Shown piece after piece: positions 221 through 30,777 of a DNA stretch of 32,067 nt. Each line of letters opens with the position of its first letter. Position 1 is the first letter of the stretch. The notes under the pieces are model-generated. The model was not told where the DNA came from and searched no databases. It worked only from the letters and a program-made list of their open reading frames with translations. Source of the DNA: Steroidobacter sp. (GTDB taxonomy: Bacteria; Pseudomonadota; Gammaproteobacteria; Steroidobacterales; Steroidobacteraceae); the NCBI RefSeq assembly GCF_016790065.1, contig NZ_JAEUPY010000148.1, forward strand, positions 1 through 32,067. The letters are read 5' to 3'. Both the position numbers and the translations under genes were made by a program.

Positions 221-306
221 TTGTGAGGGGTGATCCTTTTCGGTTGTCAACATTGGCAGGGAGCTTTGAATCCTTGCAGGCCAATACACAACCAGAAGGG
301 CGCGCA

Positions 307-3573: not shown

Positions 3574-3595
3574 TTTTCATCCGGGGGATTCCACT

Positions 3596-10118: not shown

Positions 10119-10175
10119 GCGGCGGCTGACAGGCCACCGGAGGATTTACGCCCTCCCCAAAAAAATATCGCCCGA

Positions 10176-10206
10176 GGGGGTGGAAAATTTCCCGCCGTGC
10201 ATCTTC
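10176..10206 (+). promoter_or_regulatory. Candidate ECF-type promoter upstream of the sigma gene
   Basis: This lies in the 130-bp gap 10119-10248 between the DPP IV-like gene and the sigma gene. It combines a G-rich GGGGGTGGAAAATTT block with CATCTTC about ten bases later, resembling the GGAAAT-like -35 and CGTC-like -10 layout described for FecI-group sigma factors. GGAAA and TTTCC also form a small inverted repeat here. A short GGAGG/CCTCC stem (10139-10143 with 10152-10156) lies just upstream but lacks a T-run on the + strand. Assignment is by eye and weak. Confidence 0.35.
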
Positions 10207-10248
10207 AATGAGCGGCGCCGAATTTTGCGTCGATTCAGGTTCTAAGTA

Positions 10249-10833: not shown

Positions 10834-11770
10834 GCAAGCCGCCATCGAGTGGCTGGCCCGTCGCGATGGTGGCGATTGGAATGAGACCACGCAGCGCGAG
10901 TTCGACGCATGGCTCGCGGGCGATGAACGTCGCGTGGGTGCCGTGACTCGGGCGGAAGCGGCGTGGGATTTCATGAGCCGGGCTCGTGCACTGTCCGGTG
11001 GCCGCTCCGTTGAAGAGATCCAACGAATTGCTTCGCTGGCGGCGCGCCGGCGCTTTTTCATCTCGACCGGTGTCGGCGTTGCGTTGGCGGCAAGTGTCGC
11101 GATGCTGGCGCTGTTGTTGGGAGGCGCGGAGCGGTACGGCACTGAGTTGGGCGAGATCAGGCAGGTCGCACTGACCGACGGCTCGCGCGCCAGCCTCAAT
11201 TCACAAAGCCAGCTGAAGGCCTCAATGCGAGCCGAGCAGCGCGATGTGGAGCTCGAAGCGGGCGAGGCCTTCTTCGAAGTGGCCAAAGATGCCGCGCGCC
11301 CGTTCATCGTCAAGGCGGGCAGCGTGCGAGTCAAAGCGGTCGGCACCGCTTTCTCAGTTCGCAAACGCGAGCATGGCGTCGATGTGCTCGTGACAGAAGG
11401 TGTCGTGAGCACCTGGATCGCCGGCGATGAAGACAAAGCCTTGCGACTCGCCGCTGGTGCGCGGGCTTTCGTCACGGAACAGAACAATACGACGGTGCTC
11501 GAAGATGCTCCCACTGAGATTGCTCGTGCGCTCTCCTGGCGCGTGGGAGAGATCAGCTTGGAAGGTCAGACGCTGGCCAACGCGGCGGCCGAGTTCAATC
11601 GCTACAACCCCCGACGCATCGTGATCGATGACCCGACGCTCGGCGCGCGCCAACTGGTCGGCCGATTCCGAGTCAACGAGCCTGAAGAGTTCGCGCGAGC
11701 GGTGGTTTCGACGCTCGATGCTCGCATGGAAGTCAGTCCGGATACGATTCGGTTGGTGCCGCGAAAATAA
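10802..11770 (+). CDS. FecR-type anti-sigma / signal-transducing protein
   Basis: I choose ATG 10802, preceded by GAGAGG, over ATG 10763; it gives 322 residues starting MSERETAKK with the usual FecR N-terminal sigma-binding domain (FDAWLAGDERRVGAV). One membrane helix lies at about residues 85-108. The periplasmic part contains the FecR core (VALTDGSRASLNSQS, then VELEAGEAFFEVAKD and RPFIVKAG) and a C-terminal domain with AAEFNRYNPRRIVI. It would sit in the inner membrane, hold the preceding sigma factor, and receive the signal from the STN domain of the receptor encoded next. Lack of a long gap to the receptor (75 bp, T-rich, with an AGGGAGA ribosome site) supports one functional set. Confidence 0.9.
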   Translation: MSERETAKKVEQAAIEWLARRDGGDWNETTQREFDAWLAGDERRVGAVTRAEAAWDFMSRARALSGGRSVEEIQRIASLAARRRFFISTGVGVALAASVAMLALLLGGAERYGTELGEIRQVALTDGSRASLNSQSQLKASMRAEQRDVELEAGEAFFEVAKDAARPFIVKAGSVRVKAVGTAFSVRKREHGVDVLVTEGVVSTWIAGDEDKALRLAAGARAFVTEQNNTTVLEDAPTEIARALSWRVGEISLEGQTLANAAAEFNRYNPRRIVIDDPTLGARQLVGRFRVNEPEEFARAVVSTLDARMEVSPDTIRLVPRK

Positions 11771-11845
11771 TTTTTATTTTTTTGGTGGGACCCGCGAGGA
11801 TTTTTTTCTCCCATTCCTCTTTTAAGACAAACAGGGAGAAACCAC

Positions 11846-14176: not shown

Positions 14177-14184
14177 GAACGACC

Positions 14185-15378
14185 ATGAGAATAATGATGA
14201 AAAGAACGTTGTCTCTGATCGTTTGCGCGTTGAGTTTGGTTTGGCTGGCGCCGGCAACGGCGTCGCCGGACCGTGCCGAAGTGCTGGACTACTTGGAACG
14301 ATTGCAGACGCAGTCCGGTGCGCCGGGCGTGTCTGCGGCTGTGGCGGTCGACGGACAAATCGTTTTCTCGGGCGGCGTGGGTCAAGCCGATCTGGAAGCA
14401 GGCACGCCGCAGAACGGACGCACTGTGCACAACATCGGCTCAGTGTCGAAGGTGATTGCGGTCACGGCGATTCTGCAGTTGGTCGAGCAAGGCAAGGTCG
14501 ATCTCGACGCCGAGCTACAGCGTTACTTGCCTTGGTTTCCTCGCAAGGACAAGCCCATCACGGTGCGGCACATCCTCACGCACACCTCGGGCATTCGTCA
14601 CTACAAGGACAACGAGTTCGGCGAGATCGTGAAGCACTATGCCGAGTTCGAACCGGCCACCCAGTTCTGGCGCGACGATCCGTTGGTGTTCGAGCCGGGC
14701 TCGCATTGGATGTACTCGTCGTACGCGGTGAACTTGATCCAGGGCATCGTGGAGTCGGTGAGTGGCCGGGCGTTCGAGACCTACTTGCGAGAGCAGGTGT
14801 GGATTCCTGCCGGCATGCTGTCCACTCAGTTCGACGTGCCGAGTCGAGTCGTGCCGCGCCGGGGCCGAGGCTATCTGCGTAGCCAGACCTATCCAGTGGA
14901 CGTCAACAAGCCGCAGTTACAGAAGGCGCCCGATGAGGACGTGAGCTACAAGTATGCTGGCGGCGGCATGATTGCCAGCGACGAAGACCTGTGCCGGCTG
15001 GGTATCGCTTTGAACCGCGCGCAATTGCTCAAACCGGAAACCCAGACCGCGATGTACAAGCTGCAGCTGCCGCCGGGGCTGCCGACCATGCCGTCCGAGT
15101 TCATGAAAAAGAACAGTCCCGGCGTGTTGCCGCCTTCGCAAGACAAAGAGCAGGCCCTGATGTGGTGGATGGGCAAGGATGCGGCTGGGCGGCCGTATGC
15201 GGGTCATGCCGGCAGCGTCAAAGGCACGCAAAGCATGCTGATGAACTTCTATAAGCAGAACGTGGTGGTGGCGGTTCACTTCAACGCCAGCGGCGCGGAT
15301 GTGGGTGAAGCGGCGATGTCCATCGCGCAGCTGTTCATGCCCCAGTTGGCTGTGCCTGTTGGGCGTTCCGCCAAGTAG
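14185..15378 (+). CDS. Exported beta-lactamase-family (class C / LACTB-like) serine hydrolase
   Basis: Encodes 397 residues from ATG 14185, with GAGA six bases upstream; GTG 14173 (overlapping the receptor stop) and ATG 14194/14197 are alternatives. A signal peptide (LSLIVCALSLVWLAPATA) is present. The catalytic SxxK is S86-V-S-K89. The second motif reads YSS (177-179) where most family members have YSN, and the third is H341-A-G. The domain includes penicillin-binding proteins, D-aminopeptidases, esterases and LACTB-like peptidases, and YSS/YST is seen in the LACTB-like branch. Its place right behind a siderophore-type receptor suggests it processes an imported ligand or peptide rather than giving antibiotic resistance, but this is inference. 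Confidence 0.85.
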   Translation: MRIMMKRTLSLIVCALSLVWLAPATASPDRAEVLDYLERLQTQSGAPGVSAAVAVDGQIVFSGGVGQADLEAGTPQNGRTVHNIGSVSKVIAVTAILQLVEQGKVDLDAELQRYLPWFPRKDKPITVRHILTHTSGIRHYKDNEFGEIVKHYAEFEPATQFWRDDPLVFEPGSHWMYSSYAVNLIQGIVESVSGRAFETYLREQVWIPAGMLSTQFDVPSRVVPRRGRGYLRSQTYPVDVNKPQLQKAPDEDVSYKYAGGGMIASDEDLCRLGIALNRAQLLKPETQTAMYKLQLPPGLPTMPSEFMKKNSPGVLPPSQDKEQALMWWMGKDAAGRPYAGHAGSVKGTQSMLMNFYKQNVVVAVHFNASGADVGEAAMSIAQLFMPQLAVPVGRSAK

Positions 15379-15384
15379 ACCTGG

Positions 15385-15411
15385 CAAGCGGCGGATCGCA
15401 TCCGCCGCTTG
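15385..15411 (+). terminator. Strong hairpin after the serine hydrolase gene
   Basis: A perfect inverted repeat with 12-base arms (CAAGCGGCGGAT and ATCCGCCGCTTG) around a 3-base loop CGC starts 7 bases after the hydrolase stop. It is GC-rich and very stable, but no T-run follows, so it may be a partial terminator or an mRNA-stabilising 3' structure rather than a textbook intrinsic terminator. It separates the receptor-hydrolase unit from the oxidoreductase gene. Confidence 0.6.
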
Positions 15412-15474
15412 ACGGCCATAGCGCCGATCTGCGATATGCCAACGCGGTACGGCTCACCGCGGGTTTGAGAACGC

Positions 15475-17391
15475 ATGCGTAATCGCGATCGCTCTTCGCA
15501 TCGGTTGGGGTTGGATCGGTCCATCACTCGTCGGGATTTTGTCGGCGGCACCTTGGTGGGCGCCGGCGCGGCGTTGTTGGGGGTTCCGACCATCGCGAGT
15601 TCTCAGGGGCTCGACGCGAGTTGGGGCGGCTTTGCGGGCATCGGCGATTACGCGCGGTCCAACGGCAACACCGCCGATGTGGTCAACACGGCCCATGCGC
15701 TACGCGATGGCGCTTTCGAACAACAGCTGGAAAAGGCCCAAGCGGTTGACGATGTCTACGATCTGGTGATCGTCGGCGGTGGCTTCGCTGGCGCGTCGGC
15801 GGCGTTGGAGTTTCATGACTCCGGCCGCGGCGGCCGCTGCCTGATGCTCGAGAATCACGCGATCTTCGGTGGCGCGGCCAAACAGAACGAGGTGGAGGTC
15901 GGCGGTTATCGGCTGTTGGGGCCGCAGGGGTCGCACAACTTTCGCGTGCCGCCGCCGCTGGAGGCGGGCGCGACCCCGAATCTGGCTCAGGAAATGTGGG
16001 CTCGTCTTGGGATTCCCAAGGAGTTCCTGCACGCGACACCCGCCAACGTTGCAAGCGGCGTGCGGATCGCCACTGAGTACTATCAGCCGATGATGCGGGA
16101 TGAGGGAGCCTCGATTGGCTACTTCTTCGATCCGCGAACTCATGGTCAGCGTGGCGGTTGGGTTCGCGACATGTGGTCGGATGAATTGCAGCGAACGCCG
16201 TTCGATGCACAAGCGCGTGCCGATCTATTGCGTCTGCAGAAGAGCGACGCTCACGTCGTCGCCGACGCTGCCAACGATGCTTGGATGGACCAACGCAGTT
16301 ACGCTGATTTCTTGAAGACGGCTTACGGTGTCGGTGAAGCGGGGCGCCGCTATGTCGATCCGATTCTCGCCGCGAGCGCTTACGGTGTTGGTAGTGACGC
16401 GCTGTCTGCCCTCGCTGCGAAACAATTGACGATGCCGGGAACGGCTGCCGACAAAACTGCCGCGCTCGGTAATCCCATGGAAGGCTTCCCGGGCGGCAAT
16501 GCGACGTTGTATCGCTACTTCATCAAAGCCATCCGGCCGGATGCCATCGCGGGTGGCAACGATCTCGAGTCCATTGCCACGGGCAAGGTTCGTTTCGATG
16601 AACTCGATCGTGCTTCGGCCAAGACGCGCATTCGTCTCAAGTCGATGGTCGTAGCCGTGCGTCACGTTGGTGATCCGCAAACTGCCAAGACGGTCGAAGT
16701 TATTTATTCGCGTGACGGACGCTTGCAGCGAGTGCAGGCGCGTGCCGTTGTCATGAGCACCGGTTCATGGGTGACGCGTCGGGCCGTTCGGGATCTTCCT
16801 TCGCGTCATCTCGATGCCTTCATGCAGTTTCATCACGCGCCGATTTTGGTTGCGAATGTCGCCGTTTCTCATTGGCGTTATCTCGACAAGCTCGGCGTGT
16901 CGGCCGCGCGTTGGTTCGAGGGGCTTGGGTTCTTTACCAATGTTCGCTCGCCTGTGCGCATCGGTGAGCGCGCACCGCCGCTCGATCCGAACTATCCGGC
17001 GATGCTGACGTTTTATATGGGCTTTCCTACCGCCGGTTTGCCGCTCGTCGCGCAGACCGCTGCCGGGCGGGCGCAACTATTCGGCACTCACTACAGCGCC
17101 TTTGAGTTGCAGATTCGCGAGCAGTTACAAACCATGTTCGGCGCTCATGGCTTCGATGCACGTCGTGACATCAAAGGCATCATTCTCAATCGTTGGGGCC
17201 ATGCGTTCGTCGCCCCTCAGCCCGGCTTCTACTTCGGCCTCGGCGGCCAACCCGCCCCGAGTTCGATTGCTCGCACGGCCTTCGGCCGCATCTCCTTCGG
17301 TCATTCCGAGTTCAACGGCCATCAAAACTGGCGCTGGGCCGCTACGGAGGGGAGAAGGGCGGCGAAGCAGGCGTTGGCGGTGCTTGTGTAG
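15475..17391 (+). CDS. Tat-exported FAD-dependent oxidoreductase, spermidine dehydrogenase-like
   Basis: Encodes 638 residues. A Tat signal is visible: R19-R20 in ITRRDFVGG followed by a Gly/Ala-rich hydrophobic stretch. The FAD-binding Rossmann motif G101-G-G103-FAG106 lies in DLVIVGGGFAGASAALEF, followed by an ENHAIFGG stretch typical of flavoprotein amine oxidases. The segments IGDYARSNGNT and AHALRDGAF before the Rossmann motif mirror the conserved N-terminal region of spermidine dehydrogenase (SpdH) proteins. In that family the enzyme oxidises polyamines in the periplasm; here the substrate is a guess and another amine or amino compound is equally possible. It lies after a strong hairpin, so it may have its own promoter. 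No clear Shine-Dalgarno is seen apart from GAGAAC. Confidence 0.7.
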   Translation: MRNRDRSSHRLGLDRSITRRDFVGGTLVGAGAALLGVPTIASSQGLDASWGGFAGIGDYARSNGNTADVVNTAHALRDGAFEQQLEKAQAVDDVYDLVIVGGGFAGASAALEFHDSGRGGRCLMLENHAIFGGAAKQNEVEVGGYRLLGPQGSHNFRVPPPLEAGATPNLAQEMWARLGIPKEFLHATPANVASGVRIATEYYQPMMRDEGASIGYFFDPRTHGQRGGWVRDMWSDELQRTPFDAQARADLLRLQKSDAHVVADAANDAWMDQRSYADFLKTAYGVGEAGRRYVDPILAASAYGVGSDALSALAAKQLTMPGTAADKTAALGNPMEGFPGGNATLYRYFIKAIRPDAIAGGNDLESIATGKVRFDELDRASAKTRIRLKSMVVAVRHVGDPQTAKTVEVIYSRDGRLQRVQARAVVMSTGSWVTRRAVRDLPSRHLDAFMQFHHAPILVANVAVSHWRYLDKLGVSAARWFEGLGFFTNVRSPVRIGERAPPLDPNYPAMLTFYMGFPTAGLPLVAQTAAGRAQLFGTHYSAFELQIREQLQTMFGAHGFDARRDIKGIILNRWGHAFVAPQPGFYFGLGGQPAPSSIARTAFGRISFGHSEFNGHQNWRWAATEGRRAAKQALAVLV

Positions 17392-18086: not shown

Positions 18087-19109
18087 TCACCGCTCGCGAG
18101 TGACATGAATCCCGCGCTCGCCGACGTCGACTTGCACGCCTTCGAACTCGCGTAGGAATGCCAGGAACGCGGTTTCGTTGTAAGCAGAGAAAGTGCCGCT
18201 GATCCGAGTGTCGCGCAGCGTTTCGTCGTCGATGTAGATAGGAACGCTCAAGTAGCGATTGAACTCGGTGGCCACTTCGCTCAAAGGGCGGCCGCTGATC
18301 ACGATCTCGCGGCGGATCCAGGCTGTCTCTGCGTTGACGTCGATAGCGGCGATCTTCGGGATGCCTTTGTTCAACTGCGCTTGCTGGCCGATGCTCAGTC
18401 GCAGCGGCGTGTCAGTGGGCGCAGATGCAGGGCCGACGACGTCGACTTTGCCTTCCACGACGGTGACGGTGATGTCGCCGCCGGCACGTCGGTATACGTC
18501 GAACTCAGCACCCACAGCCACGACTTCTGTGCCGCCAGCGCGGACGCGAAAGGGACGAGTGGTGTCGTGGGCCACGCTGAATAGTGCTTGGCCGCTTTCT
18601 AGTTCGATCAGGCGTTCATGCTCTGAGTAACGTACGCGCGTACGCGTTTCCGAATTGAGATGAATCACCGAGCCGTCGCTCAAACGAACGGTGCGTTGAT
18701 CGCCGTGCGCTACTTTGACCGTCATCGAGCCCGGCGGATTCACATACTGAAAGCCCCAGTACACCGCGACGCTCGCAATCACAGCAGCAGCGGCGAGTGG
18801 CAAAAAGCGAGTCGAGCGCCGACGCGAATCCCGGCTGAGGACGGCAGACGGATGCAACGCCACTACGTTGGCATCGCTCTCGGCTTGCTCTGGCGATTCG
18901 ACTGTCAAACCATCGAACGCACGCGACATGAGCTTGGCCATGCGCGCCGTTTCCAGATACTCCCGCACGTTATGCGGGTTGTCCTGTAGCCATTTGAGGA
19001 ACTCGACCTTCTCGGTAGGTGTGAGTTCGCCGCTCAACAGGCGTGCCGACCAGGCACTGGCCTGTTCGCGGACTGCGGCTCGAATCAGGTCATCCGTCGT
19101 TCGGTTCAT
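18087..19109 (-). CDS. FecR-type anti-sigma / signal-transducing protein
   Basis: Encodes 340 residues on the - strand. The N-terminal part (LTPTEKVEFLKWLQDNPHNV) matches the FecR sigma-binding domain, a membrane helix lies at about residues 101-120, and the periplasmic part has the FecR core (TVRLSDGSVIHLNSETRTRV, GQALFSVAHDTTRPF) and the C-terminal domain (LSEVATEFNRY, ISGTF). Its ATG overlaps the sigma stop in ATGA, so the two are translationally coupled. It would relay the state of the divergent receptor at 19834 to the sigma factor. Compared with the FecR at 10802 it has a longer linker ahead of the membrane helix. Confidence 0.9.
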   Translation of the reverse strand: MNRTTDDLIRAAVREQASAWSARLLSGELTPTEKVEFLKWLQDNPHNVREYLETARMAKLMSRAFDGLTVESPEQAESDANVVALHPSAVLSRDSRRRSTRFLPLAAAAVIASVAVYWGFQYVNPPGSMTVKVAHGDQRTVRLSDGSVIHLNSETRTRVRYSEHERLIELESGQALFSVAHDTTRPFRVRAGGTEVVAVGAEFDVYRRAGGDITVTVVEGKVDVVGPASAPTDTPLRLSIGQQAQLNKGIPKIAAIDVNAETAWIRREIVISGRPLSEVATEFNRYLSVPIYIDDETLRDTRISGTFSAYNETAFLAFLREFEGVQVDVGERGIHVTRER

Positions 19110-19627
19110 GGCGCCTCCGTTACATCCATTTGCTGGCGACAGTGCAAGGTGGCTCTAGCCACCGCTTTCTCGACGGCGCTTTTGGTGACGCCCCAGCGCC
19201 GGGCAATTTCCCGATACGACAAGTTCTCCTCGTAAACCAGTTTCAGTACCTCACGATCTCGTGCCGACAGCGTGCTCAGGGCTTCGCGCAGTCGCACGAC
19301 CAATCGTTCGGTGTCGATTTCTCGCTCGGTGTGCGCCTCGACGGATAGCTCCGGGGCGTTCAACGAGTCTTCCAGGGGCACGCGCAATGCCTGGCCTTGC
19401 CAGCCTTTGGCATGGGCCCGTTCGCGCAACAGATTGTCCGCGACGGTGAACAAGTAGCCTTGCGGATCGGCGATGCTGCTCAAGTCCTGTAAACGCAACA
19501 GGCGCAGGAACACCTCCTGACTCAAATCAGGGGCATCGGTCTGTTGCACGATCCGGCGACGGAAAAAGCTCGTCACCTGGCGCGCTCGCGCCGTGAACAG
19601 TTGATGTAGCAGCTTGTGCTCGCTCAC
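19106..19627 (-). CDS. FecI-type ECF RNA polymerase sigma factor
   Basis: Encodes 173 residues on the - strand from a GTG. Region 2 (APDLSQEVFLRLLRLQDL, then DPQGYLFTVADNLL) and the region 4 helix-turn-helix (ENLSYREIARRWGVTKSAVE) are typical of the FecI group. It is read divergently from the receptor gene, with a 206-bp shared regulatory gap (19628-19833), and followed by its FecR. Expected to drive transcription of the receptor-peptidase-amidohydrolase operon on the other strand when released by FecR. Confidence 0.9.
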   Translation of the reverse strand: MSEHKLLHQLFTARARQVTSFFRRRIVQQTDAPDLSQEVFLRLLRLQDLSSIADPQGYLFTVADNLLRERAHAKGWQGQALRVPLEDSLNAPELSVEAHTEREIDTERLVVRLREALSTLSARDREVLKLVYEENLSYREIARRWGVTKSAVEKAVARATLHCRQQMDVTEAP

Positions 19628-19742: not shown

Positions 19743-19833
19743 ACACTGCCCGCTGCGGCCACTCTTCATTTCCCAACAGGCCAACTAGCTTGAGCCAGCG
19801 GCCATACCACCACAATAATGTCGGGGAGTGTCG

Positions 19834-22395
19834 ATGATGAGCCCAATCGCAAATTTCAAGTTGCTGTGTGCGATCGCCGTTGCGCTGGGCGGTGCCAGCG
19901 CCGCCGTCAGTGCGCAAACCGCAACATCCCAGGGGACTGCCGATTCGGCGATTGCCGCGCAGCCTCTGGAAGAGGCGCTGAAAATCGTCGAGCGTCGCAC
20001 CGGCCTGCAGATCGTTTATGTCACCGCGCTGGTCGAAGGCAAATACTCGAAGGGCGCGCCGGCCGGTTTGCCGGCGACTCAGGCGCTCACCCATGTCCTG
20101 GAAGGCACGGGCCTCACCTTCAAATTCCTCACTGACCACACTGTGGCCATCCAGTCGCCGCGTGAGAGTGGCGCGAGCGTAGCCCAAAGCCCAGGCATGC
20201 AACGGATCGCTCAGGCGCAGGCGGTTGCCGAAACTCAGAATGCCAACGGCCCACAGGCAACGACTAGCAATGGCGGGGCCGCGGCTGCGGATACGTCGGC
20301 GGTGACGCTGGACGAGGTCATCGTGCAGGGCCTGCGCTTCCACGGTCCGGAAGCCAGCACGGCGCTCAAAGTGCCGCTGTCGATCAAAGACACGCCGCAG
20401 ACGGTCGTCGCCATCACCGGCGACATGATGGATTTCGCGTCCATCAAGACCTTCAAGGATGTGTATCGCGTCGACCCGACCGGCGGTGCCACTCATCGCG
20501 TCGACAATGCCAGCGTGAATTATTTCCGCGGCTTTTTGCAGCAGAGTAACAACGCCATCAAGGTCGACGGCTTTCGGCTGCGCTCCAGCTTCAATCTGGA
20601 CTTCGCGCCGTTCGAGCGTCTGGAGTTGGTGAAGGGTGCGACCTCCACCATGTACGGCCAGAACTCCATCGCCGGCACCTTGAATGCGATTTCCAAGATG
20701 CCCAAGAGCGAGTTCGGCGGCGAGCTGAAAGCGGAAATCGGCAGCTTCGATCATTATCGCGTCGATGCGGATATCTACGGTCCGTTGACCGACGATGGCG
20801 CGCTGGCGTATCGCCTGGTCGGCGCTCGGCTGGACGAAGATTCGTACCTGGACTACGCCGGCAAGAAGACCACGGTCATTGCGCCGACCTTGCGTTATCA
20901 AATCGGCGAGGACACGACGGTGTTCGCGCGCGTCAATTATCAAAAGACCGATTCGGTCACCATGTGGGGCGGCGGTCTGCAGTACCTCGGCGATTGGGAT
21001 GAGGCGTACGAAACGGGTTTCGATCCTGCGTTGCTGGTCATGCCGAATCTGCCGCGCTCGCATTTCAACGGCGCGTCCTGGAATAACGCTGAGCATGAGG
21101 CCAAGCTGATCCAGGCGGGACTGGAACATGGCTTTGATAACGGCTGGGTGTTACGCGCCTACGCCCAACGCAACAAGCAAGATATTTTCTATGCTCGTGA
21201 GTTCACTGCGCTGTTCCAGGCAGACGGCGTGCCGCTGCATGCGGTAGCCGAGCGCAACGACAATCGCTTCACGCTCGAAGGCGCTGAAGTCAATTTGTAT
21301 GGCGACATCGAGTTGTGGGGCCGCCCGCAGACATTGTTCATCGGTGCCGATTACTCCTCGCTGGAGAATCCGTTGTTGTATTCGCGGGTCAACGTCAACA
21401 GCCCGAGCATTTTCGATCCGACGTTCAATACCGCTGTGCCGCCCGTGAGGTCGCTGACGGACTACACCGTGTTCTCGCAGTATCGATCGGTGCAGAAGAA
21501 TACGGGCGCCACGGCGCAGGTGTTCATTCGCCCGCTGGATGGGTTGATCTTGCTGGTCGGCGGCCGCTATTCCAAGGATGAGAACGGCACTCGGTCGCGC
21601 TGTTGCGGCGCTGGCGTGCTGGCCGGCACCGTTCCGTACAACAAAGCTGAGGTCAAAGTCGATTCGTTCACGATGCAGACCGGCGTGACTTATGCGCTGA
21701 CGCAGAATCTGAACCTCTACGCCAGCTACGGTGAGACCTATTCGCCGCAGACCGGCTTGGTCAACGCCAATACCTACGTCGATCCCGAGGAAGGCACGGC
21801 GACGGAAATCGGTTTGAAGGGCGCGCACAGCGAACGTTTCTCTTACTCGCTGGCGTTGTTCGACATGGAACGAACCAACATCGCGCAGTCGCGGCCCGGC
21901 ACCGTGTATGTCGATCCCATCGGCACTCAACGCAGCCGAGGTGTGGAGGCGGAGTTCCAAGGCACCATCGTGCGAGGCTGGGAGTTGTTCGGCGCGCTCG
22001 GCTGGATGAAGGCAGAGTTCGCCGATGGTCAATACAAAGGTCTGCAGCCCGTCGAGGCACCGCGCTTCGGTCTGTCGTTGTTCACCAGCTACGAGTTGCA
22101 ACAGGGACCACTGCGTGGTGTTGGCATCGGCGCCGGTGTCGTGCACAAGCGTGGGCGCGAAACGTTCTTCATCGATCTCGGCCCGGATGGCCGGCCCTTG
22201 GCCTACGACTTCGGCGACTTCACCGAAGTGGACTTGCGAGTGTTCCGCAATACCGAGCACTGGCGCTTGCAGCTGTCGGTGACCAACCTGCTCAACGAGG
22301 AATACTTCACCTCGGATTCGTACAACGGCCTCGACTCGGGCATTCATATCAATCCTGCCCGTACCGTCATCGGCCAGGCGTCCTATCGCTTCTAA
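19834..22395 (+). CDS. STN-domain TonB-dependent siderophore-type receptor
   Basis: Encodes 853 residues. I start at ATG 19834, which has CGGGGAG six bases upstream; GTG 19828 and ATG 19837 are close alternatives. The signal peptide ends at about VSAQ (residue 28), an STN domain covers about 38-107, a low-complexity linker follows, and a TonB box LDEVIVQGLR lies at about 159-168. The plug carries TPQTVVAITGDMM, YFRGFLQQ and RLELVKGATSTMYGQNSIAG, the siderophore-receptor pattern; the barrel ends ASYRF. A Cys-Cys pair (RSRCCGAG) lies in a predicted extracellular loop. It is divergent from its sigma/FecR pair. Its stop overlaps the next start in TAATG, so it is coupled to a peptidase, which hints at a peptide-type ligand. 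Confidence 0.92.
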   Translation: MMSPIANFKLLCAIAVALGGASAAVSAQTATSQGTADSAIAAQPLEEALKIVERRTGLQIVYVTALVEGKYSKGAPAGLPATQALTHVLEGTGLTFKFLTDHTVAIQSPRESGASVAQSPGMQRIAQAQAVAETQNANGPQATTSNGGAAAADTSAVTLDEVIVQGLRFHGPEASTALKVPLSIKDTPQTVVAITGDMMDFASIKTFKDVYRVDPTGGATHRVDNASVNYFRGFLQQSNNAIKVDGFRLRSSFNLDFAPFERLELVKGATSTMYGQNSIAGTLNAISKMPKSEFGGELKAEIGSFDHYRVDADIYGPLTDDGALAYRLVGARLDEDSYLDYAGKKTTVIAPTLRYQIGEDTTVFARVNYQKTDSVTMWGGGLQYLGDWDEAYETGFDPALLVMPNLPRSHFNGASWNNAEHEAKLIQAGLEHGFDNGWVLRAYAQRNKQDIFYAREFTALFQADGVPLHAVAERNDNRFTLEGAEVNLYGDIELWGRPQTLFIGADYSSLENPLLYSRVNVNSPSIFDPTFNTAVPPVRSLTDYTVFSQYRSVQKNTGATAQVFIRPLDGLILLVGGRYSKDENGTRSRCCGAGVLAGTVPYNKAEVKVDSFTMQTGVTYALTQNLNLYASYGETYSPQTGLVNANTYVDPEEGTATEIGLKGAHSERFSYSLALFDMERTNIAQSRPGTVYVDPIGTQRSRGVEAEFQGTIVRGWELFGALGWMKAEFADGQYKGLQPVEAPRFGLSLFTSYELQQGPLRGVGIGAGVVHKRGRETFFIDLGPDGRPLAYDFGDFTEVDLRVFRNTEHWRLQLSVTNLLNEEYFTSDSYNGLDSGIHINPARTVIGQASYRF

Positions 22396-24392
22396 TGGTC
22401 AGAGCATTGTTATTGGCGGCGCTGCTGGCAGCGCCGCCGCTCGCTGCTGCCATCGAGTTGGCCGATCTGGGCAAGGAAGTGCGCCTGATCGAAGCTGTCA
22501 TCGCGCCCGAGGGTGGGCAGGTGGCGGTGGTGGGCGTGCATCAGGACTTCGTCGACAACCGTCTGGTGCGTTCGTTGCAGTTGGTCGATGTGAGCACCGG
22601 AGCGATTCGCGAGTTGGCGATTGGTCGTACCAGTGTTCGCTCGCCACAGTGGTCGCCTCGCGGTGATCGGCTAGCCTGGCTCGATGCCAGCGCTGGCGGC
22701 GAAGCGGCCATCCATGTGCTGTCACTGCAGGAGGGGCTCGCTAAGGCTGTGACCCTCAGTAATGTCGGTGGGGCGGTAAATAGCTTTCGTTGGAGCCCGG
22801 ACGGCAAGTCGTTCGCGTTCTTGACCGATGCATCGTCAGCGGCGCGAGAGCCGTTCAATCGTTCGTTCGAAATCATCGATGGCAGCTATCTCTCCAAGGC
22901 TGCATCCGTAACGTCGCAACTGTGGCTCGTCGCTGCGGATGGTGGTGAAGCACGGCGTCTCTCCTCGGATGATGAAAATGTGACGGCTATGGAATGGCAG
23001 CAAGGCGGCCGAAGCCTTGGCTACATATCGGAACCCGCGCGTGGAGTAGATTCGCCGAAAGCGACTCTGAGCATCATCGAGGTTCAGAGCGGCACGCGTC
23101 GAGTCGTGACCGAAGTGCCGACGCCGGGCGGCAATGTGGCCGTGCTCGAAGTGCTGCCGTCATCCCCGGATGGCCGCTTGATGTCGTATGCGCGCTCGCG
23201 CAGTGGCAACCTCTATTCACAGCGACGGATTTATCTCGCCGCCACGAATGACGCCAAGAATCGTGACGGCGCGCCTGCGCTCCACGCTGACGGCCGCGAT
23301 GCCACGCCTGCGCTAGACGCGAGCTTTCACGGCATGGCTTGGGTAGCCGAGGGCCGTACATTGGCGCTCTCAGCCAATCAAGGCACGCGAACCGCGCTGT
23401 GGCTACAACCGCTCGAAGGAAAATCGCAGCGACTCGACACAGGTGCCGTGTCCGAAGTGCGAGCACTGTCGGCTAGTCGCAATGGCACGCTCGCATTCAT
23501 CGGTAGCGAGCCTCGACGTGCGGCGGAAATATATGTAATGACCAGTGCGCGCTCCAAGCCGCAACGACTGACGCAGTTCAATGCATGGAGCGCGGCACTA
23601 GAACTGGGCCGAAGCGAAACGGTGACCTGGACGGTGGACGGTTTAGCGCTCGATGGCGTGCTGACCTACCCGCCGAAGTTTGACGCCGGCCGGAAATATC
23701 CGCTGGTGCTCGATCTGCATGGCGGCCCGACTGGAACCTCGCTCGATAGCTTCGGTGGGTTTCATCAACTGCTGGCCACGCAAGGCTGGTTGGTGTTTCG
23801 GCCCAACTTCAGAGGCAGCGACAACGCGGGCGAACGGGTGCAGAGCGCGATCGTCGACGATCTGGGTGAAGGCCCCGGGCGCGATGTGATGGCGGGCATC
23901 GCCGCACTTCAGGCCCGAGGCATCGTCGATGACACTCGAATCGCGGTGTCGGGATGGTCGTATGGTGGATACCTGACTGCCTGGTTGATATCTCGCTATC
24001 CGCAGACGTGGCGCGCGGCGGTGGCAGGCGCTGCGATTACCGATTGGCGCGATCAGTACCACTTCAGCGATCTCACCACCTCTATCGGGCACGCCTTCGG
24101 TGGTTCGCCATGGGTAGAAAAAAATGCCGAGAACTATTGGCGTCAATCGCCCATGGCCAATGCCACGCGCATTCGTACGCCGACGCTGATTCTCGCCAAC
24201 ACTGGCGACGAGCGCGTTCCGATCACGCATTCATACAAGTTGTATCGAGCGTTGAAGGACAGCGGTACGCCGGTGCAGTTCGTTGCGTATCCGATTTCGG
24301 GCCATTGGCCGTCGGATCCCGTGCATCAGCGAGACATGTATGGACGCTGGCTCGGATGGATCGCGACGGCCTTCGCGGGAGACGTGCGGTGA
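22395..24392 (+). CDS. Exported S9 family (acylaminoacyl-peptidase/DPP-like) serine peptidase
   Basis: Encodes 665 residues; its ATG overlaps the receptor stop by one base. A signal peptide (LLLAALLAAPPLAAA) opens the protein. The N-terminal propeller contains SPRGDRLAW and SPDGKSFAF repeats. The hydrolase domain is canonical: LHGGP at the oxyanion site, FRPNFRGSDNAG, nucleophile S522 in GWSYGGY, D605 in TGDERVP and H637 in SGHWPSD. This matches the S9C-type oligopeptidases that trim short peptides. It is the first enzyme after the receptor in a tightly overlapping operon, so it is likely the main processing enzyme for what the receptor imports (inference). Confidence 0.9.
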   Translation: MVRALLLAALLAAPPLAAAIELADLGKEVRLIEAVIAPEGGQVAVVGVHQDFVDNRLVRSLQLVDVSTGAIRELAIGRTSVRSPQWSPRGDRLAWLDASAGGEAAIHVLSLQEGLAKAVTLSNVGGAVNSFRWSPDGKSFAFLTDASSAAREPFNRSFEIIDGSYLSKAASVTSQLWLVAADGGEARRLSSDDENVTAMEWQQGGRSLGYISEPARGVDSPKATLSIIEVQSGTRRVVTEVPTPGGNVAVLEVLPSSPDGRLMSYARSRSGNLYSQRRIYLAATNDAKNRDGAPALHADGRDATPALDASFHGMAWVAEGRTLALSANQGTRTALWLQPLEGKSQRLDTGAVSEVRALSASRNGTLAFIGSEPRRAAEIYVMTSARSKPQRLTQFNAWSAALELGRSETVTWTVDGLALDGVLTYPPKFDAGRKYPLVLDLHGGPTGTSLDSFGGFHQLLATQGWLVFRPNFRGSDNAGERVQSAIVDDLGEGPGRDVMAGIAALQARGIVDDTRIAVSGWSYGGYLTAWLISRYPQTWRAAVAGAAITDWRDQYHFSDLTTSIGHAFGGSPWVEKNAENYWRQSPMANATRIRTPTLILANTGDERVPITHSYKLYRALKDSGTPVQFVAYPISGHWPSDPVHQRDMYGRWLGWIATAFAGDVR

Positions 24393-27300
24393 AGTGGGCG
24401 TGTGCGGTTTGGTTACTGTTGCTGGGAATGACGGCCGACGCCGCTGCGAGCCTGCCGCTTCAGCCGACGCGACAGATCACATTCGATACCAGCGAGGGCA
24501 CTTGGATTTCTGTCGACGTGTCTCGCGATGGCAAGACCCTCGTGTTCGATCTGTTGGGTGACCTGTATCAGCTACCCATCAGTGGTGGGCAAGCCGTTCG
24601 AGTCACTTCGGGGCTGGCGTTCGATTCTCAGCCGCGCTATTCGCCCGATGGCCGACAGCTGCTGTTCGTCAGCGACCGAGACGGTTCGGACAACGTCTGG
24701 GTCGCCGATGCGGATGGCAACAACGCACGCCAAGTCACTCGCGAAACCAACAACATTTTCATTTCACCGGTATGGACGCCAGACGGCGGCTCTATCGTCG
24801 TTTCCAAAGCCAGCGGCGCTGCAGGTGTGCGTGACTGGGCAACGCGAGGCGAGGTGGCGCTACATCTGTACTCGCTCGCTGGCGGCGCTGGCCTGAAAGT
24901 CAGTGGCGCTCCATTGTTGACGATCGCAGGCCAGTCCAACTCCGCGGCGGGACGCTACTTCGGCGCAACGTTCGGGCCGACGGGTGAACTGTTCGCTGCA
25001 CTGAACCGCGGCGGCATGCGAGACGGCTCGTGGCAGATCGTGTCATTCGATCGTGAGACAGCTCAGGCTCGCTTTCGCACCGGCGCACCGGGCAGCGCGA
25101 TGCGGCCCATGGTCAGCCCCGATGGTCGCTATCTCGTGTACGCGACACGCGTAGACGATAGAACAGAGTTGAGATTGCAGGACCTGGCGTCCGGAGAAAC
25201 CCAAACGCTGGTGAGTTCGGCAACGCCAGATGCGCAGCGCGAAGGTGCTTATGATGCCAGCCGCGACTTGATGCCGGGTGCGGCATTCACGCCAGACGGT
25301 ACCAGCATCGTGACCAGCTATGGCGGCAAGCTGTGGCGTGTCGATGTGTCGTCGGGTCGTGCCACGGCGATTCCGTTCACTGCACATATCGAGCAGGAAC
25401 TGGGGCCGCTGGTGAAGTTCACTCAGCGTTCGCCCAGTGACGCGCCGACCGCGCGAAAGATTAGCGATGCGCGATTGTCACCCGATGGCAAGCGGTTGGT
25501 CGTCTCCGCGATGGAGCGTTTGTGGATGGTCGATGTTTCGGCCGGCTCAAGCTCGCGAGGTGCTGCTCAGCGTTTGACTCAAAGCGAGCAGGTTGAGTCA
25601 TTCCCGGCTTGGTCGCCCGATGGTCAGTATGTGGCGTACACAACTTGGCGCGACGATGAAGGCGGGCACATCTATCGAATGCGAGCGGATGGTCGCGGTT
25701 CGCCAGAGCGTCTGACTGCAACGACTGCGTTCTACGAGAAGCCTGCATATACACCCGACGGATCGCGATTAGTGGCGGTGCGCTCGTCGCGGCAGGCTCA
25801 GTTGGAGAGTCGCAGGTCGCCCGGCGATCTGGTCAGCCTGCCTGCGAACGGCGGCGACATCACTGTCATCGCTCCGGTCACTGCAACCACGCAGGGCGGC
25901 CCGCACTTCGGTGCGCCGTCGGATCGAGTACTTATGTACGACGCGCAGGACGGGCTTGTGTCCATGCGACTCGATGGCAGCGAGCGGCGTGCAATCGTGA
26001 AGGTAGTCGGCCGTGGTGAGATCGGACCACGCCTTGGGACGGTGCCAGCGGATGATGTGATTCTGTCGCCTGACGGTCGGCATGCAGTGGCGTCGATGCG
26101 CGATCGCATCTATCTCGTTGCCATTCCGGTGTGGGCACAGACACAGACGCCCGTCGTCAATCTCGATGAGCCTGGTGCGGCGATACTGCCGACTAGTCGG
26201 CTCGACGTGACGGGTGGCGAGTCTCCCAGTTGGAGCGTCGACGGCAAGTCGCTTTACTGGTCGCTGGGTCGCTCGTGGTTTCAGCGGCGAGTGGACACTG
26301 ACTCGTTACAAGATCAGCAGATCGTTCGAACGGACATCGAGATTCGACGGCCGACAGCGCGCGCGCCAGAAACATTGGTCATGCGAGGCGCTCGCCTCAT
26401 TACGATGCAAGGAGAGCAGGTCATCGAGAATGGCGACCTTGTGATTGCCGATTCGAAAATCGCAGCGCTCGGTCCACGCGGCACTGTCGAAATTCCCGCC
26501 GACGCGCGCGTGCTCGATATAAGCGGCAAGACGGTACTGCCGGGCTTCATCGATATTGATGCAGAGCTATCACCGAACCAGCGTTGGCAATACCTTGCGA
26601 ATCTAGCCTACGGCGTGACGACGGTTCGCGACACTCGACCCGCCAGCTCTGATTGGATGATCGATGCGGACTCAATGGAGTCAGGCAATGCGCTCGGCCC
26701 TCGCATCGTCTCGAGTGGTCCTAGAATATCGGCCGCGGCGCAGTTGCGTAGTCTCGATGAAGCGCGTGCATTTCTGCGCGGATACTCCGAACACTACGGC
26801 GCTCGAACGATTGCTCAGGAGCATGTCGGGGAACGCAGGGTAAGGCAGTGGCTTGCCATTGCCAGCCGAGAACAAGGACTGTCACCGACAGCCGCTGGCG
26901 GTGGCGATCTCAAATTGAAGCTGACCCTGGCGGCGGATGGTTACGCCGGTATGTCCGGCGCGATTCGCATGTTTCCAGTGTATCGCGATGTCATCGAGTA
27001 CCTGGCTCGCAGCGGTACCGCGTACGCCCTCAACGTGGCCTCGACACAAGCCGATTATTTCTATCGTCGCTACGATCTTCGCAACGAATCCAAGTTGCTG
27101 AGGTTGGCGCCGTGGTCAGAGATCGAGGCGCGGCCGTTTCGGGGCCGTGCTGTGGCCGGCGCATACGGCGATGACTATTCCTTCCAACCGAAGGCGACTG
27201 TCGCGGCCGCGTTGTTGACCGCTGGCGGCAAAGTCACCGTCGGCTCGCGCGGGTTGCTACCGGGATTAGGATTTCATTGGGAACTGTGGGCCACGCAGAG

Positions 27301-27526
27301 CGGTGGGCTGTCGGCGCATTCGGCATTGCTTGCAGCCACGGTTGCGAACGCTGAGTTGCTCGGCTTGGGCGCTGAACTAGGTTCGCTCGCGCCGGGCAAG
27401 CGAGCTGATCTGCAAGTGCTCGATGGCAATCCGTTGCTCGACATCGCGCAGACCCAATCGATCCGCTACGTCGTGAAAGACGGGCGGCTGTATGACGCTG
27501 CGACACTTCAGGAGCGCTCGCCATGA
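24389..27526 (+). CDS. Exported PD40 propeller-amidohydrolase fusion with a degenerate metal site (copy A)
   Basis: Starts at GTG 24389, overlapping the previous stop in GTGA; the frame stays open back to 23954, but only this start gives a signal peptide (AVWLLLLGMTADAAA). The 1045-residue product has a TolB/PD40 propeller (about 25-650) and an amidohydrolase domain (about 663-1040, from RGARLITMQG). In this family the propeller-amidohydrolase fusion is related to exported imidodipeptidases. Against the next copy, the metal-binding HAH reads DAE (724-726), Lys in IKQY is Ala809, EH in GLEHW is SG (856-857), GSHG is GSRG (R954), EGG is AGG, and six residues are missing just after the HAH site. 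It is therefore probably not a metal-dependent hydrolase. The stop overlaps the next start (ATGA). Confidence 0.88.
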   Translation: MKWACAVWLLLLGMTADAAASLPLQPTRQITFDTSEGTWISVDVSRDGKTLVFDLLGDLYQLPISGGQAVRVTSGLAFDSQPRYSPDGRQLLFVSDRDGSDNVWVADADGNNARQVTRETNNIFISPVWTPDGGSIVVSKASGAAGVRDWATRGEVALHLYSLAGGAGLKVSGAPLLTIAGQSNSAAGRYFGATFGPTGELFAALNRGGMRDGSWQIVSFDRETAQARFRTGAPGSAMRPMVSPDGRYLVYATRVDDRTELRLQDLASGETQTLVSSATPDAQREGAYDASRDLMPGAAFTPDGTSIVTSYGGKLWRVDVSSGRATAIPFTAHIEQELGPLVKFTQRSPSDAPTARKISDARLSPDGKRLVVSAMERLWMVDVSAGSSSRGAAQRLTQSEQVESFPAWSPDGQYVAYTTWRDDEGGHIYRMRADGRGSPERLTATTAFYEKPAYTPDGSRLVAVRSSRQAQLESRRSPGDLVSLPANGGDITVIAPVTATTQGGPHFGAPSDRVLMYDAQDGLVSMRLDGSERRAIVKVVGRGEIGPRLGTVPADDVILSPDGRHAVASMRDRIYLVAIPVWAQTQTPVVNLDEPGAAILPTSRLDVTGGESPSWSVDGKSLYWSLGRSWFQRRVDTDSLQDQQIVRTDIEIRRPTARAPETLVMRGARLITMQGEQVIENGDLVIADSKIAALGPRGTVEIPADARVLDISGKTVLPGFIDIDAELSPNQRWQYLANLAYGVTTVRDTRPASSDWMIDADSMESGNALGPRIVSSGPRISAAAQLRSLDEARAFLRGYSEHYGARTIAQEHVGERRVRQWLAIASREQGLSPTAAGGGDLKLKLTLAADGYAGMSGAIRMFPVYRDVIEYLARSGTAYALNVASTQADYFYRRYDLRNESKLLRLAPWSEIEARPFRGRAVAGAYGDDYSFQPKATVAAALLTAGGKVTVGSRGLLPGLGFHWELWATQSGGLSAHSALLAATVANAELLGLGAELGSLAPGKRADLQVLDGNPLLDIAQTQSIRYVVKDGRLYDAATLQERSP

Positions 27527-29550
27527 ACTGTCGCGACTATTGGTATTGCGTGTTGGCGTTCATCGGCATCGCGGCGCTGCCTGATGCGTTCGCGGCCGAC
27601 GCTACACGGCTGCCACTGCAACCGACGCGCACGATCAAGTTCTCCACCGATGAGGGCACGTGGATATCGCTGGACGTGGCTCCAAACGGCAAGTCTCTGG
27701 TGTTCGAATTGCTAGGCGATCTCTACACCTTGCCTATCGCTGGCGGGCGAGCGGCGCGCATCACCTCCGGCATGGCGTTCGATTCTCAGCCGCGATTCTC
27801 GCCGGATGGTAAGACGATTGTTTTCGTCAGCGACCGTGACGGTGCCGAAAACTTGTGGCTGGTCGATGCCGACGGTCGCAACCCGCGAGCAGTGACGTCC
27901 CGCAAAGGTGACATGTTCATGTCGCCGGAGTGGACGCCGGACGGCGATTCGATCGTCGTCACTCGTTCCATCGGTAGCGTCAGCGGTTGGGCGTGGGGAA
28001 GAGAGACTCGCGATCTGGCGCTTTATATGTATCACCGCGATGGCGCCGCGGGCATCAAGCTCAACAATCTTACGCCGGTGGGCTTCACTCGTGCCGGAGC
28101 GGTGGGATTTACCGGCGCGGCATTCGGCACCGATCCCGATGTGCTGTTCGCTGCGATCTCGGCGGATTCGACCGATGCGGAACATGGTCTGTGGCAGGTC
28201 GTGTCGTTCGATCGCAAGCGAGGGACGTCCGTGCAGCTCACCGACGAGCCGGGCGGCGCGATGCGTCCTTTAGTGAGCCCGGACGGGCGCTATCTCATCT
28301 ATGCGAGCCGTCGCGATGACGTGACTCAGTTGCGCGTGCGGGACCAGCGAACCGGCGACACACGTACATTGCTCGTCAATGTGACGCGCGATGCGCAAAG
28401 GGATCCGGACATCGGCCGCGATCTCATGCCGGGCAGTGCGTTCCTTCCGGACGGTACAGCATTCGTGACCAGCTTCGGCGGCAAGTTGTGGCGAGTGTCG
28501 GTGCCGAGCGGCGAAGTCGCGGCGATTCCGTTCACGGCCGAAGTGGAGCAGAAGTTGGGTCCGCTGCTGCATTTCGATCAAGTGATCGACGATACCGTGA
28601 CGGTGCGGGAGATTCGTAATGCCAAGCCGTCGCCCGATGGCACGAAGCTGGTGTTCTCCGCGCTCGACCGGCTGTGGCTCATGCGTCTACCTAACGGCAA
28701 GCCTCAGCGCCTGACGACGGATGACAGCGGTGAGTTTTTTCCAACGTGGTCGCCGGATGGGCGTTACATTGCATACGCCACTTGGTCGGAACTCGAAGGC
28801 GGCACCATCAAACGTATTCGAGCCGAGAGCGGCGCGACCGCCGAAGCACTCGCCGGCGATACCGCTTACTACTACGAGAAGTTGGTGTACTCGCCCGATG
28901 GTAGGTCGTTGTTTGCTGTCCGCAGCTCACACCGTGCTCGTGCCGAGGCGCTGAATGAAATGTCCATGTGGCGAGACATTTCACCGGTGCCGCTCAACAG
29001 CGAACTGATTCAGCTGCCGGCCGAGGGCGGCGCGATCCGCAGCGTCATGCCACTGACGGCCGGTAAGGTGTATGCACCGTTTCATGGGGTACCGCATTTC
29101 AATCGTGCCAGCGGCGCGATGTATATATATGAGTACGACCGCGGCGTGGTCAGTGACAAGAGCCGACGCCCGTTGCTCACAGTCACCGGTTGGGACGAGG
29201 CAGGCGGTACCAACCAGGCCCAAGAGCCGGCCGACGATCTATTGATCTCGCCAGACGGCACTCGAGCTTTGGCGCTGGTGAATCAGGATTTGCACCTGAT
29301 CGATCTGCCTGCCGTGGCAACCGCAGCCCCGCCGACGATCTCGGTCGACGACGGTTCGTCGAGTCCGCTGCCGATTCGACGCATTACGCGAACCGATGGA
29401 GCAGGGCCAGGCGGCGACTTTGCTGGTTGGTTTCCTGACGGGAAACGCGTGTACTACTCGCTCGGCAGTACCTTCTTCATTTATGACCTTGCTTCTCGCC
29501 GCACCGAGCGCATCGAGGTCAATCTCAAACTGCCTCGCGACCGACCTTGA
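27523..29550 (+). CDS. Exported PD40/TolB-like beta-propeller protein (N-terminal half of split copy B)
   Basis: Encodes 675 residues with a signal peptide (VLAFIGIAALPDAFA) and PD40 repeats (FSPDGKTIVFVSDRDG, SPDGRYLIYASRRD, SPDGRYIAYATWSE, SPDGRSLFAVRSS). It aligns from end to end with the propeller half of the preceding fusion (LPLQPTR, EGTWIS, GLAFDSQPR versus GMAFDSQPR). It ends at TGA 29548-29550 after LPRDRP, and the same frame continues without interruption into the amidohydrolase gene at 29557. In an ungapped alignment to copy A the stop replaces a single linker codon. On its own the propeller would be a periplasmic binding or scaffold protein. Confidence 0.85.
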   Translation: MNCRDYWYCVLAFIGIAALPDAFAADATRLPLQPTRTIKFSTDEGTWISLDVAPNGKSLVFELLGDLYTLPIAGGRAARITSGMAFDSQPRFSPDGKTIVFVSDRDGAENLWLVDADGRNPRAVTSRKGDMFMSPEWTPDGDSIVVTRSIGSVSGWAWGRETRDLALYMYHRDGAAGIKLNNLTPVGFTRAGAVGFTGAAFGTDPDVLFAAISADSTDAEHGLWQVVSFDRKRGTSVQLTDEPGGAMRPLVSPDGRYLIYASRRDDVTQLRVRDQRTGDTRTLLVNVTRDAQRDPDIGRDLMPGSAFLPDGTAFVTSFGGKLWRVSVPSGEVAAIPFTAEVEQKLGPLLHFDQVIDDTVTVREIRNAKPSPDGTKLVFSALDRLWLMRLPNGKPQRLTTDDSGEFFPTWSPDGRYIAYATWSELEGGTIKRIRAESGATAEALAGDTAYYYEKLVYSPDGRSLFAVRSSHRARAEALNEMSMWRDISPVPLNSELIQLPAEGGAIRSVMPLTAGKVYAPFHGVPHFNRASGAMYIYEYDRGVVSDKSRRPLLTVTGWDEAGGTNQAQEPADDLLISPDGTRALALVNQDLHLIDLPAVATAAPPTISVDDGSSSPLPIRRITRTDGAGPGGDFAGWFPDGKRVYYSLGSTFFIYDLASRRTERIEVNLKLPRDRP

Positions 29551-29556: not shown

Positions 29557-30777
29557 GTGCTTTTAAGAGGCGCCCGGTTGATCACCATGAATGGCTACGA
29601 AGTGATCGAAGACGGCGATCTGGTCGTCGTCGACAACCGGATTCGTGCGCTCGGCCCGCGGGGCAAAGTTGCTGTTCCGACTGGAGCGCGCGTCATCGAC
29701 GTTACGGGTAAGACGATCATGCCTGGCCTGATCGACGTGCACGCGCACCTCTGGCCGATCTGGGATGCTCATCGCAAGGTGTCGTGGGAGTACGCGACCA
29801 GTCTCGCTTATGGCGTGACCTCGTTGCGCGATCCGCAATCAAAACGTTCGGACGCGCTGATCTATGCGGATCGAATCGACGTGGGCGACATGCTTGGCGC
29901 CAGAGTGTTTTCCGTGGGGCGCGGTGTATTTGCTCAGGTGGGACTGCGTAGCTTGGCCGACACGCGGCAGGTGTTGCGACGTTACTCGGAGCACTACCGA
30001 ACTCACACCATCAAGCAGTACCTGGTGGGCGGACGCTTGGAGCGGCAATGGTTCGCGATGGCGGCGCAAGAGCAGCGTCTGACGCCGACCACCGAAGGCG
30101 GCAAAGACTTCAAAATGAATCTGACGCTGATCCTCGACGGCTATTCGGGACTGGAGCACTGGATCGATACCACGCCGCTGTATCGAGATGTGACCGAGCT
30201 GATGGCTCGCAGCGGTATCGCTTACACGCTGACCACTAATGTGGAGTTGGATTACTTCTACCGTCGCTACGCGATTCACGACGACGCCAAGTTGCGGCGT
30301 TTCATGCCGCATACGTTCATCGATCGACTGCCGTATCGCGCTCGCTCCCTGGGCGTCGACGACCCGTATCTGTTCGAGCGTCACGCTGCCGATGCGGCCA
30401 AGATCGTCGCCGCCGGCGGCCGGGTTGCCCTCGGTTCGCACGGTAACTTTCCGGGCTGGGGCGTGCATTGGGAGCTGTGGGCCACCCAAAGTGGGGGGAT
30501 TTCGCCGCACGAGGGTCTTAGAGTAGGCACGCTTGCCAGTGCCGAGGCGATTGGCCTGGGTCGGCAGTTGGGTTCGCTCGAGTCAGGCAAGCTCGCGGAC
30601 CTGCTGGTCCTGGACAGCAACCCGCTGCTGGATATTCGCGCGACCTTGAGCATTCGCTACGTGATGAAGAACGGCCGGCTCTACGAGGGCGCTACGCTCG
30701 ACGAGATCTGGCCGAGAAGTCGCGAGTTCGGCCGACAATCCTGGATGCTAAAGTCGCGCTCCGCGACGATTCATTGA
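29557..30777 (+). CDS. Amidohydrolase-family protein (C-terminal half of split copy B), metal site intact
   Basis: Encodes 406 residues if started at GTG 29557, six bases after an in-frame TGA; GAGGGG overlaps the stop but leaves only two bases to the GTG. ATG 29587 is an alternative with no ribosome site. The family features are present: H62-A-H64 in LIDVHAHLW, K153 in IKQY, H201 in GLEHW, H295 in GSHG, and GKLADLLVLDSNPLLD at the C-terminus. Relatives include imidodipeptidases and other metal-dependent amide hydrolases. It has no signal peptide of its own, so if translated separately it would stay in the cytoplasm, unlike its fused relatives. Either readthrough, a recent nonsense change (for example CGA to TGA) or a base-call error could explain this. 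Confidence 0.8.
   Translation: MLLRGARLITMNGYEVIEDGDLVVVDNRIRALGPRGKVAVPTGARVIDVTGKTIMPGLIDVHAHLWPIWDAHRKVSWEYATSLAYGVTSLRDPQSKRSDALIYADRIDVGDMLGARVFSVGRGVFAQVGLRSLADTRQVLRRYSEHYRTHTIKQYLVGGRLERQWFAMAAQEQRLTPTTEGGKDFKMNLTLILDGYSGLEHWIDTTPLYRDVTELMARSGIAYTLTTNVELDYFYRRYAIHDDAKLRRFMPHTFIDRLPYRARSLGVDDPYLFERHAADAAKIVAAGGRVALGSHGNFPGWGVHWELWATQSGGISPHEGLRVGTLASAEAIGLGRQLGSLESGKLADLLVLDSNPLLDIRATLSIRYVMKNGRLYEGATLDEIWPRSREFGRQSWMLKSRSATIH

Follow-up and report, generated by a model that had tools for sequence, protein, structure and literature searches.

Introduction

Within the amidohydrolase superfamily, the described enzymes closest to the gene considered here are the prolidase-like L-Lys and L-Arg carboxypeptidases (PDB 3mtw, 2p9b, 3n2c and 2qs8). 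This gene, termed A, lies in a 32,067-nucleotide stretch of Steroidobacter sp. DNA (NCBI RefSeq assembly GCF_016790065.1, contig NZ_JAEUPY010000148.1), referred to as the window, and differs from these enzymes in that its amidohydrolase domain (AHD) is without the six metal positions and is preceded by an N-terminal PD40 propeller. The same two-domain architecture is found in PD40-propeller amidohydrolases of Gemmatimonadota, Bacteroidetes, Gammaproteobacteria and other groups, which share about 32-45% identity with the whole of A, also occur as tandem pairs and have an intact metal site in 159 of 163 sampled domains.

Pseudo-amidohydrolases as such are already known. The inactive dihydroorotase-like subunit of some bacterial aspartate transcarbamoylases is kept for assembly and belongs to a cytosolic pyrimidine enzyme complex, with an operon unrelated to that of A. 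Another example is provided by the CRMP (DPYSL) proteins, pseudo-dihydropyrimidinases that, like A, retain the amidohydrolase barrel while the metal ligands are mostly lost, including the Lys; in CRMP-4, according to the available text of PMC4051505, two of the six ligands remain, the bridging Lys is lost and the cavity is kept. In contrast to A, which is bacterial, apparently exported and left with no ligand, the CRMPs are human, cytosolic and dihydropyrimidinase-related. What A adds to this class is an apparently exported example from a bacterium, in which every ligand is gone. Prolidase-like enzymes rank first among the sequence and fold matches of A, CRMP chains being outside the direct comparison. 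The available part of PMC3880350 contains nothing on inactive homologues, and no paper on propeller-fused pseudo-amidohydrolases is among the literature matches listed, a coverage that leaves out most subscription journals.

Loss of the metal site in gene A

For comparison across the family, AHDs were drawn from paralogues in the same genome, from genomes of the same genus, family and order, and from 77 named loci. Removal of 14 sequences with identical ends from 171 matching open frames left 157, to which 13 and one further sequence were added, giving 171 partly non-independent rows, of which 163 span all six metal positions and eight do not. The residues H, H, K, E, H and H are intact in 159 of the 163 spanning rows, and A, which retains none of the six, is the sole row among them to lack them all. 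This alignment strongly supports an earlier note, made from the letters of the window without database searches, in which A was described as having lost its metal site. All substitutions named there are present at the residue numbers given, namely DAE at 724-726, Ala809, Ala836 (EGG to AGG), Gly857 and Arg954 (GSR), and the reported loss of six residues following the HxH site is borne out by the distance from the second ligand to the GVT motif, which is 15 residues in A, 21 in its downstream paralogue B, and between 16 and 25 in 148 further members (21-25 in 146 of them). Additional changes at columns conserved in at least 90% of members are Y811E, E856S and T882N. The frame is indeed open for 1045 codons (24389-27526); the span of 26380-27526 under which the note listed the gene covers the AHD part, the whole frame beginning further upstream. 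Both domains are recognized in one chain (PF07676, 119.8 bits; Amidohydro_1, 42.1 bits), and a signal-peptide-like N-terminus, judged by eye, indicates that the protein is apparently exported.

The metal scheme quoted in the note (HxH, Lys, His, His) needs to be modified for the family sampled, which reads HxH-K-E-H and has His instead of Asp at strand 8. The superfamily motif, as given in the available text of PMC4407906, consists of HxH, Lys, His(c), His(d) and Asp with defined spacings; here, the strand-5 His is replaced by Glu in 159 of 163 rows and the strand-8 Asp by His in 161 of 163. Judged by its aligned residues, the PD40-amidohydrolase family as sampled thus has a variant metal site in comparison to the usual motif, and no close relative of this family was present among the solved structures in the matches listed. 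In the second open reading frame of locus L007, the Glu and His positions are occupied by His and Asp, the usual superfamily ligands. Two genes from the same genome as A, 57% alike (L120:1326-4562, C410, and L121:950-5215, C805), have lost the second His of HxH and carry His in place of Glu. They were rejected as further full pseudoenzymes since their four other metal positions are kept, and they are possibly mononuclear variants or partial pseudoenzymes. Both adjoin genes similar to a beta-lactamase-family gene of the window.

Confinement of the changes to the active site

A set of 66 members less than 80% identical, taken from 148 long rows, defines 52 AHD columns that are conserved in at least 90% of sequences. 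B keeps 51 of these columns and A keeps 42. One of the ten changes in A is an R-to-K replacement in the N-terminal part, and the remaining nine affect active-site columns (family residue and A numbering: H724, H726, K809, Y811, E836, E856, H857, T882 and H954), so that 42 of the 43 other columns are retained; Y811, E856 and T882 are read here as putative active-site residues from their place in ligand-bearing strands. All six ligand columns are changed, as compared to four of the 46 other columns (Fisher p = 1e-5), and the clustering of changes at the ligands exceeds chance. The propeller, assessed with 77 non-redundant sequences out of 127 other rows, keeps 38 of 39 conserved columns in A and likewise in B. 

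Structure prediction with AlphaFold2 yielded confident models for the AHD of A (pLDDT 88.9, pTM 0.91, 38 sequences) and for that of B, designated B2 (pLDDT 87.5, pTM 0.89, 37 sequences). The model of A presents the TIM barrel and beta-sandwich of the superfamily. VIA-align, applied as a second look at the Foldseek matches, groups both domains with prolidases and Lys/Arg carboxypeptidases, although families outside its list may also match. The AHD of A scores 39.6 against both 2p9b and 3mtw (rmsd 3.4 and 3.1 over 354 and 350 aligned residues), and B2 scores 38.2 against 9kov (rmsd 2.5, 332 aligned). The NCBIfam model for Xaa-Pro dipeptidase (NF051886, cut-off 500) gives 91.2 bits for A and 94.2 bits for B2, both below the cut-off. 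The changed residues of A are located at or just past strands 1, 4, 5, 6 and 8, where Arg954 would fill the vacated metal site. The structure prediction proposed in the earlier note gives a model of A with a retained prolidase-like barrel, and together with the conserved columns this supports its statement that the rest of the fold is kept.

The sister gene B

The comparison with the downstream paralogue, on which the earlier note relied, is sound with respect to the metal site, as B2 has all six residues (H62, H64, K153, E180, H201 and H295) at spacings inside the ranges published in the available text of PMC4407906. The gene itself, however, is interrupted: one in-frame TGA (29548-29550) in the interdomain linker parts the propeller (B1) from the AHD, and owing to this codon B does not have the one-chain propeller-amidohydrolase architecture. 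A GTG lies six bases past the TGA, with a Shine-Dalgarno-like GAGGGG just upstream of it, and no signal peptide is seen by eye in B2. B is the only match with an internal stop in the match table of its own genome. The TGA may be an error; alternatively, it may stem from a nonsense mutation that arose recently or from a genuine gene fission. Single in-frame stops were also observed in two family members of other draft genomes, within the AHD in one case (L083:5788-9222) and within the propeller in the other (L102:6409-9816), neither of them at the linker.

A and B are sisters in the trees of both domains (FastTree support 0.89 and 0.99), for which the FastTree topology was used with 53 taxa, among them A and B, out of the 127 shared. 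The AHD of B is 52% identical to that of A; the nearest other AHDs in the sets searched reach 44-46%, and none exceeds 46%. As the proteins share 48-53% identity and synonymous sites were judged to be saturated, differences were counted by codon position, amounting to 139/92/228 in the AHD and 249/196/386 in the propeller, mostly at the third position. Tandem overlapping pairs are also found on Gemmatimonadota contigs (L044, L047, L051, L052, L053, L064 and others). A dead copy as a rule in tandem pairs was rejected, because these pairs have all six residues in both members where complete.

Locus and genomic context

The source genome is a draft of 8.5 Mb in 937 contigs, with a completeness of 96.4% and a contamination of 5.6%. 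A plus-strand run of genes, connected by overlaps or short gaps and putatively co-transcribed, comprises a TonB-dependent receptor, an S9 peptidase, A, B1, B2 and the start of another gene, presumably S9-like (Table 1). The GTG start of A overlaps the stop of the S9 gene, and its TGA stop overlaps the ATG of the next gene. For the last, partial gene, the available part has no Pfam match and the NCBIfam TolB propeller model reaches 34.4 bits, below its cut-off of 343, so that the S9 naming is tentative. The upstream part of the window (223-17391) contains a second scavenging block with two TonB receptors, three S9 peptidases and sigma/FecR genes, in addition to a beta-lactamase-family hydrolase gene and a gene for an FAD oxidoreductase whose family matches are weak. 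The genome encodes at least 26 propeller-amidohydrolases of nearly full length, A and B included (980 or more of the 1045 residues covered; scores obtained for 150 of the 253 candidates), and several of these paralogues adjoin genes similar to the TonB receptor, FecR and sigma genes of the window.

Table 1. Coordinates of gene A, its altered positions and the surrounding genes in the window.
Feature	Position	Strand	Basis
FecR, divergent	18087-19109	-	Pfam PF04773
Sigma-70-family, ECF-like factor, divergent	19106-19627	-	Pfam PF08281, PF04542
TonB-dependent receptor, operon head	19828-22395	+	Pfam PF00593, PF07715
S9 prolyl oligopeptidase family gene, overlapping A start	22395-24392	+	Pfam PF00326
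Gene A, PD40 propeller and AHD without metal site, 1045 aa	24389-27526	+	Open reading frame and translation; Pfam PD40, Amidohydro_1/3
A, propeller part (approximate boundaries)	24450-26360	+	Pfam; 38/39 conserved columns kept
A, AHD, predicted TIM barrel (approximate start)	26363-27526	+	Pfam, model
A, DAE 724-726; family HxH (strand 1), then six-residue deletion	26558-26566	+	Alignment
A, Ala809; family Lys (strand 4)	26813-26815	+	Alignment
A, Ala836; family Glu (strand 5)	26894-26896	+	Alignment
A, Ser856-Gly857; family Glu-His (strand 6)	26954-26959	+	Alignment
A, Arg954; family His (just past strand 8)	27248-27250	+	Alignment
B1, propeller of sister gene B, signal-peptide-like start (by eye)	27523-29550	+	Open reading frame, Pfam
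B2, AHD of B, same frame as B1, GTG start	29557-30777	+	Open reading frame, alignment
Start of further gene, probably S9-like (propeller part), truncated by contig end	30791-32065	+	Open reading frame

Origin and possible role of A

As an enzyme homologue without catalytic residues whose fold is, by prediction, kept, A corresponds to a pseudoenzyme. In an enzyme characterised from a different subfamily of the superfamily, an Ala change at any single one of the six ligands abolishes activity, as reported in the available part of PMC13081902, and since single-ligand changes have this effect, it is very unlikely that A acts as a metal hydrolase, and it would lack both activity and bound metal. 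Based on its gene neighbourhood, A can be viewed as an exported binding or scaffold protein of a TonB-receptor/S9-peptidase scavenging operon, an explanation that is preferred here at roughly even confidence. In this scenario, a single prolidase-like propeller-amidohydrolase ancestor would have given rise to A and B by tandem duplication, after which the whole metal site would have been lost from A while propeller and barrel were retained. Located in the cell envelope, A might then serve as a non-catalytic binding protein or scaffold for peptide or amide substrates, the same ones that would be taken up by the adjoining TonB-dependent receptor and cut by the S9 peptidases.

Several observations weigh against this explanation. 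First, no orthologues were found that could show the dead state to have been conserved through time: searches returned no orthologue of A in 13 other genomes of the genus (14 including its own; E up to 1e-60), in 217 genomes of the family including its own (E up to 1e-80) or in 369 genomes sampled from a larger group at class level, its own again included (E up to 1e-85), nor among the 77 loci (contig search, best 80 of 84 stretches) or among 60 relatives, with the best 13 candidates per genome scored for the relatives, the best eight for the family and the best five for the class. The orthologues with the same substitutions in the same operon position, which the earlier note proposed to look for, are thus not found in the genus, family and class sets. 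Second, the AHD of A departs from the 70% consensus alone at 28 columns, compared to seven at which only B departs (p = 5e-4); all other rows, redundant ones included, entered this test, so that its p values are rough. Third, A and B share a shortened strand-7 loop of 16 and 15 residues, as compared to 20-22 residues in 160 of 164 long rows, which suggests that the pocket had probably already been reshaped in their common ancestor. Finally, with few substitutions a neutral domain often remains free of stop codons, as observed in 24% of 1000 runs of random substitution of the AHD with 50 changes.

According to a rather unlikely but still serious alternative, the dead AHD is a structural appendage in the process of being lost and selection acts on the propeller, the barrel persisting either owing to the cost of misfolding or for want of time. 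Branch lengths, refitted by IQ-TREE without bootstraps, are 0.65 for A and 0.40 for B in the AHD (1.6 times) and nearly equal in the propeller (0.54 and 0.55). The propeller likewise shows no excess of departures at 70% consensus (13 in A only and 16 in B only; p = 0.71), and the 90% consensus gives 11 versus one in the AHD and two versus two in the propeller. The AHD of A has changed faster than that of its sister, and only in this domain, a pattern compatible both with relaxed constraint on the AHD and with a new role. In addition, the adjoining B carries a stop codon, and the pair may therefore be decaying. Conversely, the AHD of A is free of stops, 42 of the 43 conserved columns that lie away from the active site are retained, and most of the nine changed active-site columns differ from the B codon by two or three bases, which has the look of slow replacement with the scaffold held. 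In the random substitutions, the stop-free fraction falls to 7.6% with 100 changes and 0.5% with 200; the AHDs of A and B show 459 base differences in total. This low rate at many changes argues against long free decay, while the date of the loss is left unset. Overall, the proposal of the earlier note that A has been selected to fill a non-catalytic role, as opposed to decaying, is plausible and partly supported: the kept scaffold columns speak for it, and the faster AHD and the missing orthologue speak against it.

It is unlikely that A is instead a pseudo-subunit that regulates or stabilises a catalytic paralogue, be it B or a different exported copy, by assembling with it. Oligomers do occur among such enzymes. 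The sister genes are tandem and overlapping, molinate hydrolase, one of the structural matches, is a homotetramer (PMC4407906, available text), and CRMPs form homo- and hetero-oligomers (PMC4051505, available text). However, should the TGA be genuine and escape readthrough, B2 would have no signal peptide and would be cytoplasmic and away from A, and the tandem pairs of Gemmatimonadota indicate that a dead partner is no rule. A further reading, in which A and B1 form an exported capture pair feeding the TonB receptor while B2, cut off by fission, acts in the cytoplasm on imported substrate, is considered quite doubtful. The rebuilding of another catalytic or metal site in A, for example from the acidic residues D722, D724, E726 and E811, is highly improbable: several replacements are charged and a cavity may persist as in the CRMPs (PMC4051505, available text), yet no His or Lys is left at the six positions and the strand-8 Arg is expected to repel metal. 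An assembly error or contamination is scarcely credible, as the fragmented draft-quality genome and a B TGA that could be an error are set against an open 1045-codon frame and coherent departures at the functional site, where the six ligand codons each differ from those of B by one to three bases and conserved neighbours are spared.

Implications

A is a singleton from one draft genome, and its generality is unproven. It nevertheless offers a clear-cut example, from a bacterium, of a metalloenzyme that has lost its active site completely and with the changes limited to that site, next to a sister domain that is metal-competent. The pair of A and B would allow for a direct test of pseudo-amidohydrolase function. 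If the capture pair with gene fission were real, exported catalysis would have been abandoned in the operon, with B2 as its only metal-competent amidohydrolase. If A binds peptides, it would indicate that dead peptidases can be co-opted by scavenging operons for substrate capture.
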